From a virus: a stretch of 59,656 bases of DNA. The notes beneath the pieces were generated by a model, which was not told the origin of the DNA, made no database searches, and saw only the letters and a program-made list of their open reading frames with translations. Shown here piece by piece: positions 11,633 through 17,399 of this stretch (position 1 is the first letter of the stretch; every line of letters starts with the position of its first letter). The position numbers and the translations under genes are program-made. The DNA is taken from the IMG/VR virus record IMGVR_UViG_3300009499_000123, positions 1 through 59,656 of that record, one strand, 5' to 3'.

Positions 11633-12387
11633 TGCTGGATTTCAACCACCGCCCCAAGATTCACGAACAGATCGGCGCTCTCATCGATGCCGCCCTCGCT
11701 AGCGATCGTGATGGACAGGCACCGCGCACCTACCTCGGCGCTTCGCGGCTGGGTGTGGCCTGCGAGCGCGCGCTGCAGTACGAGTACCTGCGCACGCCGG
11801 TCGATCCCGGCCGTGAAATTCCCGGTCGCATCCTGCGCGTGTTTGAGGTCGGGCATGCGCTCGAAGACCTGGCCGTTCGCTGGCTGCGTTTGGCTGGCTT
11901 CGACCTGTACACCCGCAAGGCCGGCGGAGGCCAATTCGGCTTTTCCGTGGCGGGCGGCCGCATCCAGGGCCATGTCGACGGTGTGATCAACGCCGCCCCA
12001 GGCGAGCTCGGGCTCCGGTGCCCGTCGCTATGGGAATGCAAGACCATGAACGACAAGTCCTGGCGGGACACGGTCAAGCTCGGCGTCGCCCGGTCCAAGC
12101 CGGTGTACGCAGCGCAGATGGCGATCTACCAGGCCTACATGGAAGCCGCCATTCCCGGCATATCGCGCAACCCCGCGCTGTTCACCGCGATCAACAAGGA
12201 TTCGCAGGAGATCTGGTTCGAGCTGGTGCCGTTTGACGGCGGACTGGCCCAGCGCATGTCCGATCGCGCGGTCCGGGTCATTTCCGCATCCGATGCCGGC
12301 GAGTTGTTGCCACGCCATGCAACGACCCCGACCCATTTCGAGTGCAAGTCGTGCTCCTGGCAAGACCGCTGCTGGGGGGCGACGTGA
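11632..12387 (+). CDS. Cas4/RecB-like PD-(D/E)XK nuclease
   Basis: 251-aa nuclease of the Cas4/RecB-like exonuclease group. 'GHVDGVI' supplies the Asp and 'SLWECKTM' the E-x-K active-site strand; 'QMAIYQAYM' is the QxxxY motif IV. The C-terminal 'FECKSCSWQDRCW' with an N-terminal Cys ('GVACERALQ') is compatible with the Fe-S cluster of Cas4-type nucleases. It likely resects DNA ends to feed the Sak4-like annealing system. ATGA-type overlap with neighbours. Confidence 0.85.
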   Translation: MLDFNHRPKIHEQIGALIDAALASDRDGQAPRTYLGASRLGVACERALQYEYLRTPVDPGREIPGRILRVFEVGHALEDLAVRWLRLAGFDLYTRKAGGGQFGFSVAGGRIQGHVDGVINAAPGELGLRCPSLWECKTMNDKSWRDTVKLGVARSKPVYAAQMAIYQAYMEAAIPGISRNPALFTAINKDSQEIWFELVPFDGGLAQRMSDRAVRVISASDAGELLPRHATTPTHFECKSCSWQDRCWGAT

Positions 12388-14573
12388 CGACGAACGATAT
12401 CGTGTGGCTCGACTTCAACGACGCGGCCGAACCTCGAAATGAACTCGTAAATGACACGGAGACGTTGCGTACCGGGTTGCTGGATCGGCTCGAAGCCGTC
12501 TTGCACTACCTGTTCCCCCAAGGCCGCATGCGGGGCGGCAAGTTCTATGTCGGCGACACCGACGGCTCACCCGGCAAAAGCCTGGTCGTCGAGCTCGACG
12601 GCGCTCGTCGCGGTTTGTGGAAGGACTTCGCCACCGACGATGGCGGTGATGTCATCGACCTGTGGGCACGATCCCAGGGGCTGTCCACGCGCCAGGATTT
12701 TCCCCGTCTTGCCACGGAGATTCGCCAGTGGCTGGGAGTCGCACCGCCTGCGCAGTCCATTGCTCCTCACGCGGTCCGTACCGTTGCTGTCGATGAGCTT
12801 GGCCCCTACACCGCGAAATGGGATTACCTCACGCCCGAGGGCGAGCTGATCGCCTGTGTGTACCGCTACGACCCACCGACCGGCAAGGAGTACCGCCCCT
12901 GGGACGTGCGCGCCCGGATGTGGCGGGCACCCGATCCGCGCCCGCTTTACAACCTGCCGGCAATCTCAAAGCTGCAGGACGTGGTGCTGGTCGAGGGCGA
13001 GAAATGCGCCGATGCGCTAATCGCCTGCGGCATTGCGGCCACCACCGCGATGAACGGGGCCAGGGCGCCGATCGACAAAACCGACTGGCGACCGCTCGCT
13101 GGCCGCTCGGTGCTGATCTGGCCAGACCGCGACGCGCCGGGCTGGGACTACGCCGAGAACGCCGCACGCGCTTGTGTCGCGGCGGGCTGCGCTTCCGTAG
13201 CCATTCTGGTGCCGCCATCCGACAAGCCCGACAAGTGGGACGCGGCTGATGCCGTCGCCGAAGGCTTCGACTGCGATGGGTTCATCGCGCAGGGCGAGCG
13301 CCGCGTGGTCAAGGCGGCATTGCCGATGCTGCCGACATTCACGCTGGGCGCGCTGCTGGATGACGATTCGCCGCTGCCGCCTGATCTCATCTCGCCGCGC
13401 GTGCTGACGCCGGCCGGAATGCTGGTCTTCGGCGGCGCGCCCAAGGTCGGCAAGAGCGACTTCCTGCTGGCCTGGCTGACCCACATGGCCGCTGGTGCCG
13501 CCTTTCTCGGCATGCGCCCGTCACGCCCTTTGCGCGTGTTCTACCTGCAGGCAGAGGTGCAGTACCACTACCTGCGCGAACGGGTCAAAGAGCTGCGCAT
13601 TCCACCCAGCCGGCTCCTGGATGCCCGCGCGAACTTCGTGGCCACGCCCCAGCTGCGCCTCGTGCTGGACGACGCCGGCCTCGCGCAGGTGATTCCTGCC
13701 ATTGCGAATGCGTTTGGTGGCGAGCCTCCGGACATCATCGCCATCGATCCCATCCGCAATGTGTTCGATGGCGGCGACGCCGGTGGCGAGAACGACAACG
13801 GCGCGATGCTGTTTTTTCTCTCGCAACGGGTGGACCGGCTTCGCCAGGCGGTGAATCCGGATGCCGGGGTGATCCTGGCCCACCACACGAGGAAGCTGGG
13901 CAAGAAGCAGTTCGAGGAGGACCCGTTCCAGGCTCTGGCCGGTGCCGGCAGCCTGCGCGGCTACTACTCGAGCGGAATGCTGCTGTATCGGCCCGACGAG
14001 CTGCGCACGACGCGGCAGCTCATCTTCGAATTGCGCAATGGGCCGGGCATCCCCCTCAAGCACGTGGACAAGGTGCAGGGGGAGTGGCGCGAGGTCGAAC
14101 CCAATGAGCGGCTGGTCATGCAGGAGTATGGCCAGCGGCTCGATGCCGAACGCCGCCGCAAACGCGATGTGATCCTGCAGATCCTGTTCGATGAGGCTGC
14201 GCAGGGTCGCTGCTACACCGCCAATCAGTTCGCCGAAGGCTTCGAAGGCAAGGCGGGGCTCGGCGGCGAGCGCACGATCCGCGAGCGGCTTTCTGCGCTC
14301 TCGACGCAGGGCTACATCAAGTATTTCCGCAATGCAGTCGACTACGGCCTGCCGCCAGCCCGCACCAAATTCGGCTACCTCTGCGTGGAAGGCATGGTCC
14401 TGCGCTCGGTCGCTGGCGAACCCGATCCAGACACCGGCGAAGTGCCGTTGCGCGAACTCGCCGTACAGCCCACCCACTTCAAATGCCCGCAATCGGGGGC
14501 CGCCTTGCCGGTCGAGAACCCCGAGGTGTGGGTTTACCAAGACGACATCAACGATCCTCAGGAGCCCGCATGA
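12384..14573 (+). CDS. Primase-helicase (Toprim plus RecA-like ATPase)
   Basis: 729-aa replication protein starting at GTG 12384, which overlaps the upstream stop (GTGA). An N-terminal segment of about 110 residues resembles the zinc-domain remnant of phage primases ('GLWKDFATDDGGDVIDLW'). It is followed by a Toprim fold ('VVLVEGEKCADAL', 'VLIWPDRDAPG') and a RecA-like ATPase of the AAA_25 type with Walker A 'GGAPKVGKSD' near residue 350 and Walker B 'IIAIDPIRNVF'. 'VILAHHTRK' is the sensor motif. The C-terminal 150 residues look like a winged-helix. It should prime and unwind phage DNA. Confidence 0.85.
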   Translation: MTTNDIVWLDFNDAAEPRNELVNDTETLRTGLLDRLEAVLHYLFPQGRMRGGKFYVGDTDGSPGKSLVVELDGARRGLWKDFATDDGGDVIDLWARSQGLSTRQDFPRLATEIRQWLGVAPPAQSIAPHAVRTVAVDELGPYTAKWDYLTPEGELIACVYRYDPPTGKEYRPWDVRARMWRAPDPRPLYNLPAISKLQDVVLVEGEKCADALIACGIAATTAMNGARAPIDKTDWRPLAGRSVLIWPDRDAPGWDYAENAARACVAAGCASVAILVPPSDKPDKWDAADAVAEGFDCDGFIAQGERRVVKAALPMLPTFTLGALLDDDSPLPPDLISPRVLTPAGMLVFGGAPKVGKSDFLLAWLTHMAAGAAFLGMRPSRPLRVFYLQAEVQYHYLRERVKELRIPPSRLLDARANFVATPQLRLVLDDAGLAQVIPAIANAFGGEPPDIIAIDPIRNVFDGGDAGGENDNGAMLFFLSQRVDRLRQAVNPDAGVILAHHTRKLGKKQFEEDPFQALAGAGSLRGYYSSGMLLYRPDELRTTRQLIFELRNGPGIPLKHVDKVQGEWREVEPNERLVMQEYGQRLDAERRRKRDVILQILFDEAAQGRCYTANQFAEGFEGKAGLGGERTIRERLSALSTQGYIKYFRNAVDYGLPPARTKFGYLCVEGMVLRSVAGEPDPDTGEVPLRELAVQPTHFKCPQSGAALPVENPEVWVYQDDINDPQEPA

Positions 14574-15358
14574 ACACGCATCGACAAGTTGGCAAAACCG
14601 TTGCCAACTTCCCCCTGCTTTTTGCCGACGTCGGCAAGTTGGCAAACACCTGCCAACTTCAATCCATTTCAAATCAACGCCTTGCGGAGTTGTCGGCAAA
14701 TTGGCAAGTTGGCAGCGCCGCCAACTTGCCAACTTCAGCAAACCCGCATGGATACTGGGTTTTCCGGGAATTCCAAGTTGGCGAAAACTCCCCCTCCTAC
14801 TACGTAGGAGAGGGAACAGCAGTTCCCTCTACCTTACGTGGAGGTTTGCCTGGAGGTCGGGATGGGGGCGGTCTGCCGGCGAACGGAAACGCGATCTTGG
14901 CGCTGGATCTCGGCACCCAGACCGGTTGGGCTCTGCTGGACCGTGACGGCGACATCAGCAGTGGAACCGAAGGGTTCAAGCCACAGCGCTTCGAGGGTGG
15001 CGGCATGCGCTACCTCCGCTTCAAACGCTGGCTCACCGAACTCAAGCAGGTTGCTGATGGTTTGGATGCCGTGTTCTTCGAAGAGGTCCGTCGTCATGCC
15101 GGCGTCGATGCCGCGCACGCCTACGGCGGTTTCATGGCCCATCTGACTGCCTGGTGCGAACACCATCAGATCCCGTACCAGGGCGTTCCGGTTGGCACGA
15201 TCAAGAAGCACGCGACCGGCAAAGGCAACGCAAGCAAGGACGACATGATCGCTGCCGCCCGGCTTCTTGGATATGCGCCTACGGATGACAACGAGGCCGA
15301 TGCCCTGGCGATCCTGCACTGGGCCATCCAGATCTACCACGATGGGCAGGAGGTGTGA
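14570..15358 (+). CDS. RuvC-like Holliday junction resolvase with long N-terminal extension
   Basis: 262-aa frame opening with an ATGA overlap. The RuvC-like RNase H fold occupies only the C-terminal 155 residues: 'ILALDLGTQTGWAL' (first Asp), 'AVFFEEVRRH' (Glu) and 'DDNEADALAILHWA' (final Asp pair), so the resolvase looks catalytically complete. The first 105 residues have no RuvC similarity and are encoded by a dense array of AAGTTGGCAA repeats in both orientations (14586-14784). No good alternative start is visible just before the RuvC core, so either the extension is translated or a weak TTG/CTG start is used. Confidence 0.75.
   Translation: MNTHRQVGKTVANFPLLFADVGKLANTCQLQSISNQRLAELSANWQVGSAANLPTSANPHGYWVFREFQVGENSPSYYVGEGTAVPSTLRGGLPGGRDGGGLPANGNAILALDLGTQTGWALLDRDGDISSGTEGFKPQRFEGGGMRYLRFKRWLTELKQVADGLDAVFFEEVRRHAGVDAAHAYGGFMAHLTAWCEHHQIPYQGVPVGTIKKHATGKGNASKDDMIAAARLLGYAPTDDNEADALAILHWAIQIYHDGQEV
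14586..14784. repeat. Iteron-like array of AAGTTGGCAA in both orientations
   Basis: Perfect or 9/10 copies of AAGTTGGCAA lie at 14586, 14636, 14698, 14706 and 14775 (plus) and of its complement TTGCCAACTT at 14601, 14650, 14718 and 14726. They pair into hairpins (14586/14601, 14636/14650, 14706/14726). The position beside the primase-helicase and inside a replication gene recalls the lambda origin, which lies inside gene O. A replication origin or a repressor operator cluster is the best guess. Confidence 0.65.
14792..14831. repeat. Tandem inverted repeats next to the iterons
   Basis: CTCCTAC-TAC-GTAGGAG is followed at once by AGAGGGAA-CAGCAG-TTCCCTCT. Two perfect stems of 7 and 8 bp in 40 bases inside a reading frame point to a DNA or RNA structure, perhaps part of the same origin or regulatory region. 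Confidence 0.5.
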
Positions 15359-16136: not shown

Positions 16137-17399
16137 ATGCCGATGAGCGCGCTGCAGATCCACTACCGTCCGATCGACTCGCTGATCCCGTACGCCCGCA
16201 ATGCCAAGCAGCACTCGGATGCCCAGGTCGCGCAGATCGCCGCCAGCATCCGCGAGTTCGGTTGGGGTGCGCCGATCCTGATCGATGGCAAGAACAATGT
16301 GATCGCCGGCCACGGTCGCCTGCTGGCTGCCCGCAAGCTCGGCATGACGGAGGTTCCGGTCGTCCCGCTGGAGCATCTGACGGACACCCAACGTCGGGCG
16401 CTGATCCTGGCTGACAACAAGATCGGCGACAACGCCTCCTGGGAAGACGAACTGCTGGGCATTGAGTTGTCCGAGCTGAAAGACGCCGGCTTCGACCTCG
16501 GCCTGACAGGCTTTTCTCCCGACGAATGGGAAGCGCTGATCGCAGGCGACGAAGCTACCAAGGACGGGCTCACCGACGACGATGCTGTGCCGGAAGTGCC
16601 TGAAACACCCATCTCCAAAACGGGCGACGTGTGGTTGCTGGGCGATCACAATCTGCTGTGTGGCGACGCCACCAAGACGGACGACTACAAGCTGCTGCTC
16701 GGTGACGAATTGCCGGACATGGCTTTCACCGATCCACCGTACAACGTGAACTACGCCAACACGGCCAAGGACAAATTGCGCGGCAAGAATCGTCCGATCC
16801 TGAACGACAACCTGGGCGACGGCTTCGAAGCATTCCTGCTTGCCGCCTGCCAGAACATCTTGGGCGTCACCAAGGGCGCCGTCTATGTCGCCATGAGTTC
16901 CAGCGAACTCGACACCCTGCAATCGGCCTTCCGCGCTGCCGGCGGTCGCTGGTCGACCTTCATCATCTGGGCCAAGAACACCTTCACCCTCGGACGCGCC
17001 GACTATCAGCGCCAGTACGAGCCGATCCTCTATGGCTGGCGTGACGGCACCGATCACTACTGGTGTGGCGCCCGTGATCAGGGCGACGTCTGGAACATCA
17101 AGAAGCCGGCCAAGAACGATCTGCACCCGACCATGAAACCGGTGGAACTCGTCGAGCGCGCGGTGCGCAACAGCAGCAAGACCAAAGACATCGTGCTCGA
17201 TCCGTTCGGCGGCTCCGGCTCCACGCTGATCGCCTGCGAAAAATCCGGCCGCCGTGCCCGTCTGATCGAACTCGATCCGAAGTATGTCGATGTGATCGTG
17301 CGCCGCTGGCAGGACTACACGGGGCAAGAAGCGATACGCGCCAGTGATGGCGCGAAATTCGGAACGGTGCCGGAGGCGGATCAGCCGGTGATGGCGTAG
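16137..17399 (+). CDS. ParB-like domain plus DNA N6-adenine/N4-cytosine methyltransferase
   Basis: 420-aa two-domain protein. Residues 1-110 are a ParB/sulfiredoxin-type N-terminal domain ('AASIREFGWGAPILIDGKNN', 'IAGHGRLLAARKLG'). The rest is a beta-class DNA methyltransferase with motif IV 'TDPPYNVNY' and motif I 'VLDPFGGSGSTLIACEKSGR'. Such phage enzymes methylate phage DNA, for protection from restriction or to mark packaging substrates. The start is ATG 16137 (or 16143), right behind a terminator and with a weak ribosome site. The 3' end overlaps the convergent DUF3489 gene by 19 nt. Confidence 0.9.
   Translation: MPMSALQIHYRPIDSLIPYARNAKQHSDAQVAQIAASIREFGWGAPILIDGKNNVIAGHGRLLAARKLGMTEVPVVPLEHLTDTQRRALILADNKIGDNASWEDELLGIELSELKDAGFDLGLTGFSPDEWEALIAGDEATKDGLTDDDAVPEVPETPISKTGDVWLLGDHNLLCGDATKTDDYKLLLGDELPDMAFTDPPYNVNYANTAKDKLRGKNRPILNDNLGDGFEAFLLAACQNILGVTKGAVYVAMSSSELDTLQSAFRAAGGRWSTFIIWAKNTFTLGRADYQRQYEPILYGWRDGTDHYWCGARDQGDVWNIKKPAKNDLHPTMKPVELVERAVRNSSKTKDIVLDPFGGSGSTLIACEKSGRRARLIELDPKYVDVIVRRWQDYTGQEAIRASDGAKFGTVPEADQPVMA

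Follow-up and report, generated by a model that had tools for sequence, protein, structure and literature searches.

A candidate phage replication origin overprinted on a resolvase gene and probably read by the upstream primase-helicase

A 59,656-nt stretch of DNA from the IMG/VR virus record IMGVR_UViG_3300009499_000123 (positions 1-59,656, one strand, hereafter the window) carries an array of short repeats at 14586-14784 that, judging from sequence comparison, very probably represents the cis-acting replication origin of this phage, bound by the primase-helicase encoded immediately upstream through its C-terminal winged helix. The system is most likely a self-initiating helicase of the P4 alpha/SaPI Rep type, and its downstream origin would in this case be overprinted on the following gene. 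An origin at this array had been proposed in an earlier note, and comparison with relatives strengthened the proposal, through an array in the same slot of 201 out of 224 related loci, covariation with the HTH of the helicase, an IHF-type motif and constraint acting on the DNA.

Nine copies of AAGTTGGC(AA) occurred in both orientations at 14586-14784, while the repeat was almost absent from the rest of the window. Searching for AAGTTGGCAA with at most one mismatch gave 11 matches across the 59.7 kb of the window, where 1.96 were expected, a count of 11 being reached by none of 100 shuffles, and 8 of the 11 fell within 14586-14784. The nine 10-mers first read from the letters are thus real, eight of them with at most one mismatch and the ninth with two. 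Their orientations were, in order, + - + - + + - - +. The mismatch scan retrieved AAGTTGGCAA at 14586-14595 (plus), 14601-14610 (minus), 14636-14645 (plus) and 14726-14735 (minus), AAGTTGGCAG at 14650-14659 (minus) and 14706-14715 (plus), AAATTGGCAA at 14698-14707 (plus) and AAGTTGGCGA at 14775-14784 (plus). The seventh iteron in order, AAGTTGGCGG at 14718-14727 (minus), was found by direct reading and is the copy with two mismatches to AAGTTGGCAA. A further degenerate AGTTGTC lay near 14686, beside the nine iterons. The primase-helicase stops at 14573 and the array starts 13 nt further on, within an open frame that runs into the RuvC-like core beginning at 14888, which confirmed its placement between the primase-helicase and the resolvase core.

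The primase-helicase (12342-14573, plus strand), the proposed initiator, combines a TOPRIM-type primase with an AAA_25 helicase (PF13481, 4e-21; PHROG 239 DNA primase/helicase, 1.6e-68) and a C-terminal winged helix in one protein. The C-terminal domain (about residues 600-690, 14139-14411) displayed an HTH-plus-wing topology in the AlphaFold2 model (pLDDT 88), with residues 627-633 and 643-656 forming the second and third HTH helices, followed by the wing. Residues 643-656 (14268-14309; helix 56-69 of the model), including E643, R644 and R647, form the presumed recognition helix, to which the covariation also points. Pfam HTH_65 was detected in 11 of 71 family members, the window protein scoring slightly below the curated cut-off. 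Sequence and fold searches of this domain against the PDB returned nothing significant; the best fold matches, to Fur/Zur winged helices, had E values of 0.44 or more.

Related loci from prophages of many Proteobacteria, together with further viral loci, yielded 224 distinct slots downstream of the helicase. An array was scored when the roughly 330 bp after the helicase stop contained at least six copies of one 9-mer; several of the 23 slots without a clear array at this threshold still held three to five copies. The comparison of array and flanking genes in relatives, proposed earlier as a check, thus came out in favour of conserved repeats. Iteron type was lineage-specific (AGTTGGCA, AGATTGCA, AGTTTGCA, AGAATCCA, AGTTGGGA and others). 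Arrays were also present where the slot was non-coding, and still followed the helicase where no RuvC was found (L148, L149), which suggests that the array belongs with the helicase and not with RuvC.

Several loci at the margins of this comparison were of separate interest. Acidithiobacillus phage AcaML1 (L004:5914-6055) carried a different repeat, GTCTGACGG, in both orientations between primase and RuvC; its RuvC homologue was present, and the C-terminal half of its helicase was non-homologous and could not be aligned to the query. Viral loci L376-L397 matched the helicase and winged helix alone (about query residues 325-732), the primase part being unmatched, and several of them held AGTTGGGAA arrays. 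One MAG, labelled as uncultured Ralstonia, contained a prophage (L092) whose primase-helicase was identical to that of the window, which suggests a host for the phage. Scanning viral contigs for the DNA pattern gave few matches, among them one unrelated phage contig (L086).

Across more than 200 related loci, changes in the iterons appear to be matched by changes in the helicase tail. The test covered 72 representatives (effective number about 36) and set the iteron bases against 396 protein columns, correcting for background signal between columns. The top five columns by summed signal were residues 628, 627, 643, 644 and 647, which sit in the AlphaFold model where the second and third HTH helices begin; residue 647 ranked first for iteron base 5, and residue 644 did so for bases 6 and 7. 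Among 11 independent pairs differing at base 5, drawn from a tree of the helicase domain alone, the association of R647 with G and N647 with T was concordant in 6.3 and discordant in 0 (sign test, median p 0.03), and residue 647 ranked first of 178-182 variable columns. The recognition code seems partly readable from these data, as in the pairings of GERTIR with TTGGC, ANRTIN with [A/T]TTGC, KDTIR with TTGGG and RSTIA with AATCC. It depends on context, since base 5 is T rather than G in most R647 relatives from the Alphaproteobacteria.

Outside the fit, four new loci with clear arrays (L445, L446, L450, L451) carried the iteron expected from their helix, the repeat of L457 did not fit its helix, and L447, L454, L455 and L456 showed no clear array. 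Agreement of loci close to the fitted set counts for little as evidence; phage WO, at 33% identity, makes the stronger case. Covariation bears out the C-terminal domain as the probable determinant of specificity and points to the primase-helicase as the reader of the array, while being silent on whether this reading starts replication.

The array overlies the 5' end of the resolvase gene, where constraint acts on the DNA and hardly at all on the protein. The frame of the RuvC-like resolvase (14570-15358, plus strand) most likely starts at the ATG at 14570, in an ATGA overlap with the primase-helicase stop, and so includes a 106-residue N-terminal extension (14570-14887). The match of the longest ORF to PHROG 159 (RuvC-like resolvase, 9.3e-35) was confined to residues 138-284, in line with the earlier statement that the N-terminal region lacks RuvC similarity. 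In about 70 close relatives from IMG/VR, the slot measured 309, 312, 315, 318, 327, 453 or 480 nt, every length being divisible by three. All 67 distinct in-frame relatives were free of stops in this frame, while every one of the 67 had a stop in the +1 frame and 57 had one in the +2 frame, so the extension has been kept open; the frame was broken in two relatives (L028 and L051). In more distant relatives (e.g., L114, L121, L126, L127, L129, L145, L153), the slot was non-coding and RuvC started near the core.

Between close pairs, iteron codons showed a pS of 0.027 and a pN of 0.030, the codons between iterons 0.145 and 0.085, and the RuvC core 0.263 and 0.036. Synonymous change was thus about ten times lower in the iterons than in the core, with an iteron pN/pS near 1, and pN/pS reached about 0.6-1.1 in the extension against 0.14 in the core. 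The encoded tail evolves almost without constraint. AlphaFold (shallow alignment of 25 sequences) gave residues 1-104 of the resolvase a pLDDT below 50, predicting disorder, followed by a confident core. The extension, seen in this way, does not have the character of a conserved protein domain, which the earlier note had set against its own proposal.

Additional cis signals were found in and beside the array. The spacer between the two iteron clusters contained a plus-strand IHF-consensus motif, AATCAACGCCTTG (WATCAANNNNTTR), at 14672-14684. The exact consensus occurred in the spacer of 21 of 72 representatives, compared with 0 flanking coding windows and 0.65 expected by shuffling; when up to one mismatch was allowed, the count was 44 of 72 representative slots, where coding controls gave 1 of 72 and shuffles 6.9. 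This spacer was mildly AT-rich (median 55%, against 51% for the array). No DnaA boxes were detected in the representative slots, and the GC-skew check proposed for the origin gave no support, the skew of the window having no turning point at the array.

A conserved structured element followed the last iteron (14794-14844, plus strand), composed of the hairpin CTCCTAC-TAC-GTAGGAG, the hairpin AGAGGGAAC-AGCA-GTTCCCTCT and a third segment able to pair back over both. Its folding z was -4.7 in the window, with a median of -3.4 in 68 relatives and values below -2 in 75% of them, and the second stem showed paired changes (GGGAAC/GTTCCC to GGGACC/GGTCCC). The tandem hairpins allow two mutually exclusive folds, and some lineages have unrelated hairpins in a similar layout. 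An Rfam search returned sub-threshold chance matches alone. The element may serve in priming, as a signal in transcription or in the control of translation.

Other functions of the array were weighed against that of an origin. It is improbable, though the least so of these alternatives, that the array is an operator through which the primase-helicase or another early protein controls downstream transcription, with no part in initiation. Initiators often autoregulate, the array sits inside the early operon, and the structured element behind it could act in transcription or translation. Against this, the array is located at the 3' end of its binder's own gene, away from the promoter of that gene, the protein that covaries with it is a replicative helicase-primase, and two iteron clusters with an IHF-type spacer resemble known origins such as the PICI ori (PMC6092414).

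A partition or maintenance site read by another protein is very unlikely. The gene for a ParB-like protein lies 1.3 kb further on (16137-17399, a fusion of a ParB-N domain and a DNA methyltransferase), and its product could be such a reader, but iteron type tracks the helicase HTH and the array stays beside the helicase. There is equally little probability that the repeats are the by-product of a conserved N-terminal domain of the resolvase. The frame open in all 67 in-frame relatives and the recurrence of the short peptides QVGK, ANLPT and VGEN would fit such a domain, but these peptides arise from reading the iterons in several frames and on both strands, the slot gives different peptides or stays uncoded in relatives whose iterons differ, and the iteron codons combine suppressed pS with a pN/pS near 1. 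Together with the predicted disorder, pN/pS largely refuted the extension as a protein domain.

The proposed origin shares features with several known systems. The alpha protein of satellite phage P4, which acts with ori/crr, joins primase and helicase to an origin-binding winged helix at its C-terminus, the same domain combination as in the window primase-helicase. The latter has an AAA_25 helicase domain, and searches with its C-terminal domain gave neither a sequence match nor a significant fold match to alpha; the P4 cis regions are not known to fall inside the next gene. In the lambda ori, iterons lie inside a translated frame, that of gene O encoding their own binding protein. The parallel with lambda drawn in the earlier note held for iterons inside a coding frame and failed for their host gene, as the window iterons are in the resolvase gene after the initiator, encode a peptide almost without constraint and covary with the upstream primase-helicase. 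This protein being the most likely binder, P4 alpha and SaPI/PICI Rep are closer models than lambda.

SaPI Rep helicases recognise iterons directly downstream of rep with their C-terminal domain (PMC7581432), and the PICI ori consists of an AT-rich region flanked by two iteron sets (PMC6092414). SaPI/PICI Rep (or Pri-Rep) and the window system both pair an initiator helicase with iterons directly 3' of its gene. The window differs in its helicase/primase families, as far as tested, in belonging to tailed-phage prophages and not satellites, in the overprinting of the array on the next gene and in the IHF-type motif of the spacer. The SCCmec Cch2 helicase also binds direct repeats downstream of its operon, at a putative ori (PMC7581432), in a different element with a separate primase-polymerase. 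A precedent for residue-iteron covariation is the iteron-related domain of geminivirus Rep, in which initiator residues vary with iteron sequence between viruses (PMC10653810), although these plant viruses use an unrelated initiator of the rolling-circle type. The overprinting on a resolvase gene, the breadth of the family and the residue-to-base covariation are new here.

Wolbachia phage WO extended the comparison outside the fitted set. Its RepA was homologous to the window primase-helicase (33% identity, 97% coverage) and carried the helix ERSIRER, with an AAG[T/A]TGGCA array after RepA, in agreement with the covariation. This unannotated array, accompanied by an IHF-consensus site downstream of RepA (L440:3618-3850), is a candidate for the phage WO origin. 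Homologous helicase, iteron array and IHF-consensus site follow the arrangement of the window, whereas the WO slot is largely intergenic with no RuvC annotated beside it. The parts of the phage WO literature consulted treat the Wolbachia chromosomal origin and discuss no phage origin.

Initiation at the proposed origin would begin with binding of the iterons by the C-terminal winged-helix domain of the primase-helicase, which would assemble on the two iteron clusters, the intervening spacer probably being bent by an IHF-like protein of the host. The primase-helicase would then open the duplex, load as helicase and prime. Iteron sequence and recognition helix would drift together, giving each lineage its own initiator-origin pair. 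In the clade of the window, overprinting would have placed the origin within the 5' part of the RuvC gene, with the encoded tail acting as a spacer and the open frame plausibly kept for RuvC translation by coupling from the ATGA overlap.

A broader proposal, whose chances we rate as even, is that these loci form a widespread family of phage origins marked by many joint switches of specificity in initiator and iterons, by a residue-to-base code readable in the helicase winged helix and by overprinting of the origin on a translated leader of the next gene that is free in sequence. The loci offer hundreds of natural initiator-origin pairs whose specificity may be predictable from a few helix residues, which opens initiator-origin co-evolution and replicon incompatibility to direct testing. 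Annotated proteins can also hold conserved-looking repeats that are in truth DNA sites. A likely origin is placed for a prophage group of many Proteobacteria and for Wolbachia phage WO and, if the proposal is true, specificity switching would stop co-resident phages or parasites from sharing replication.
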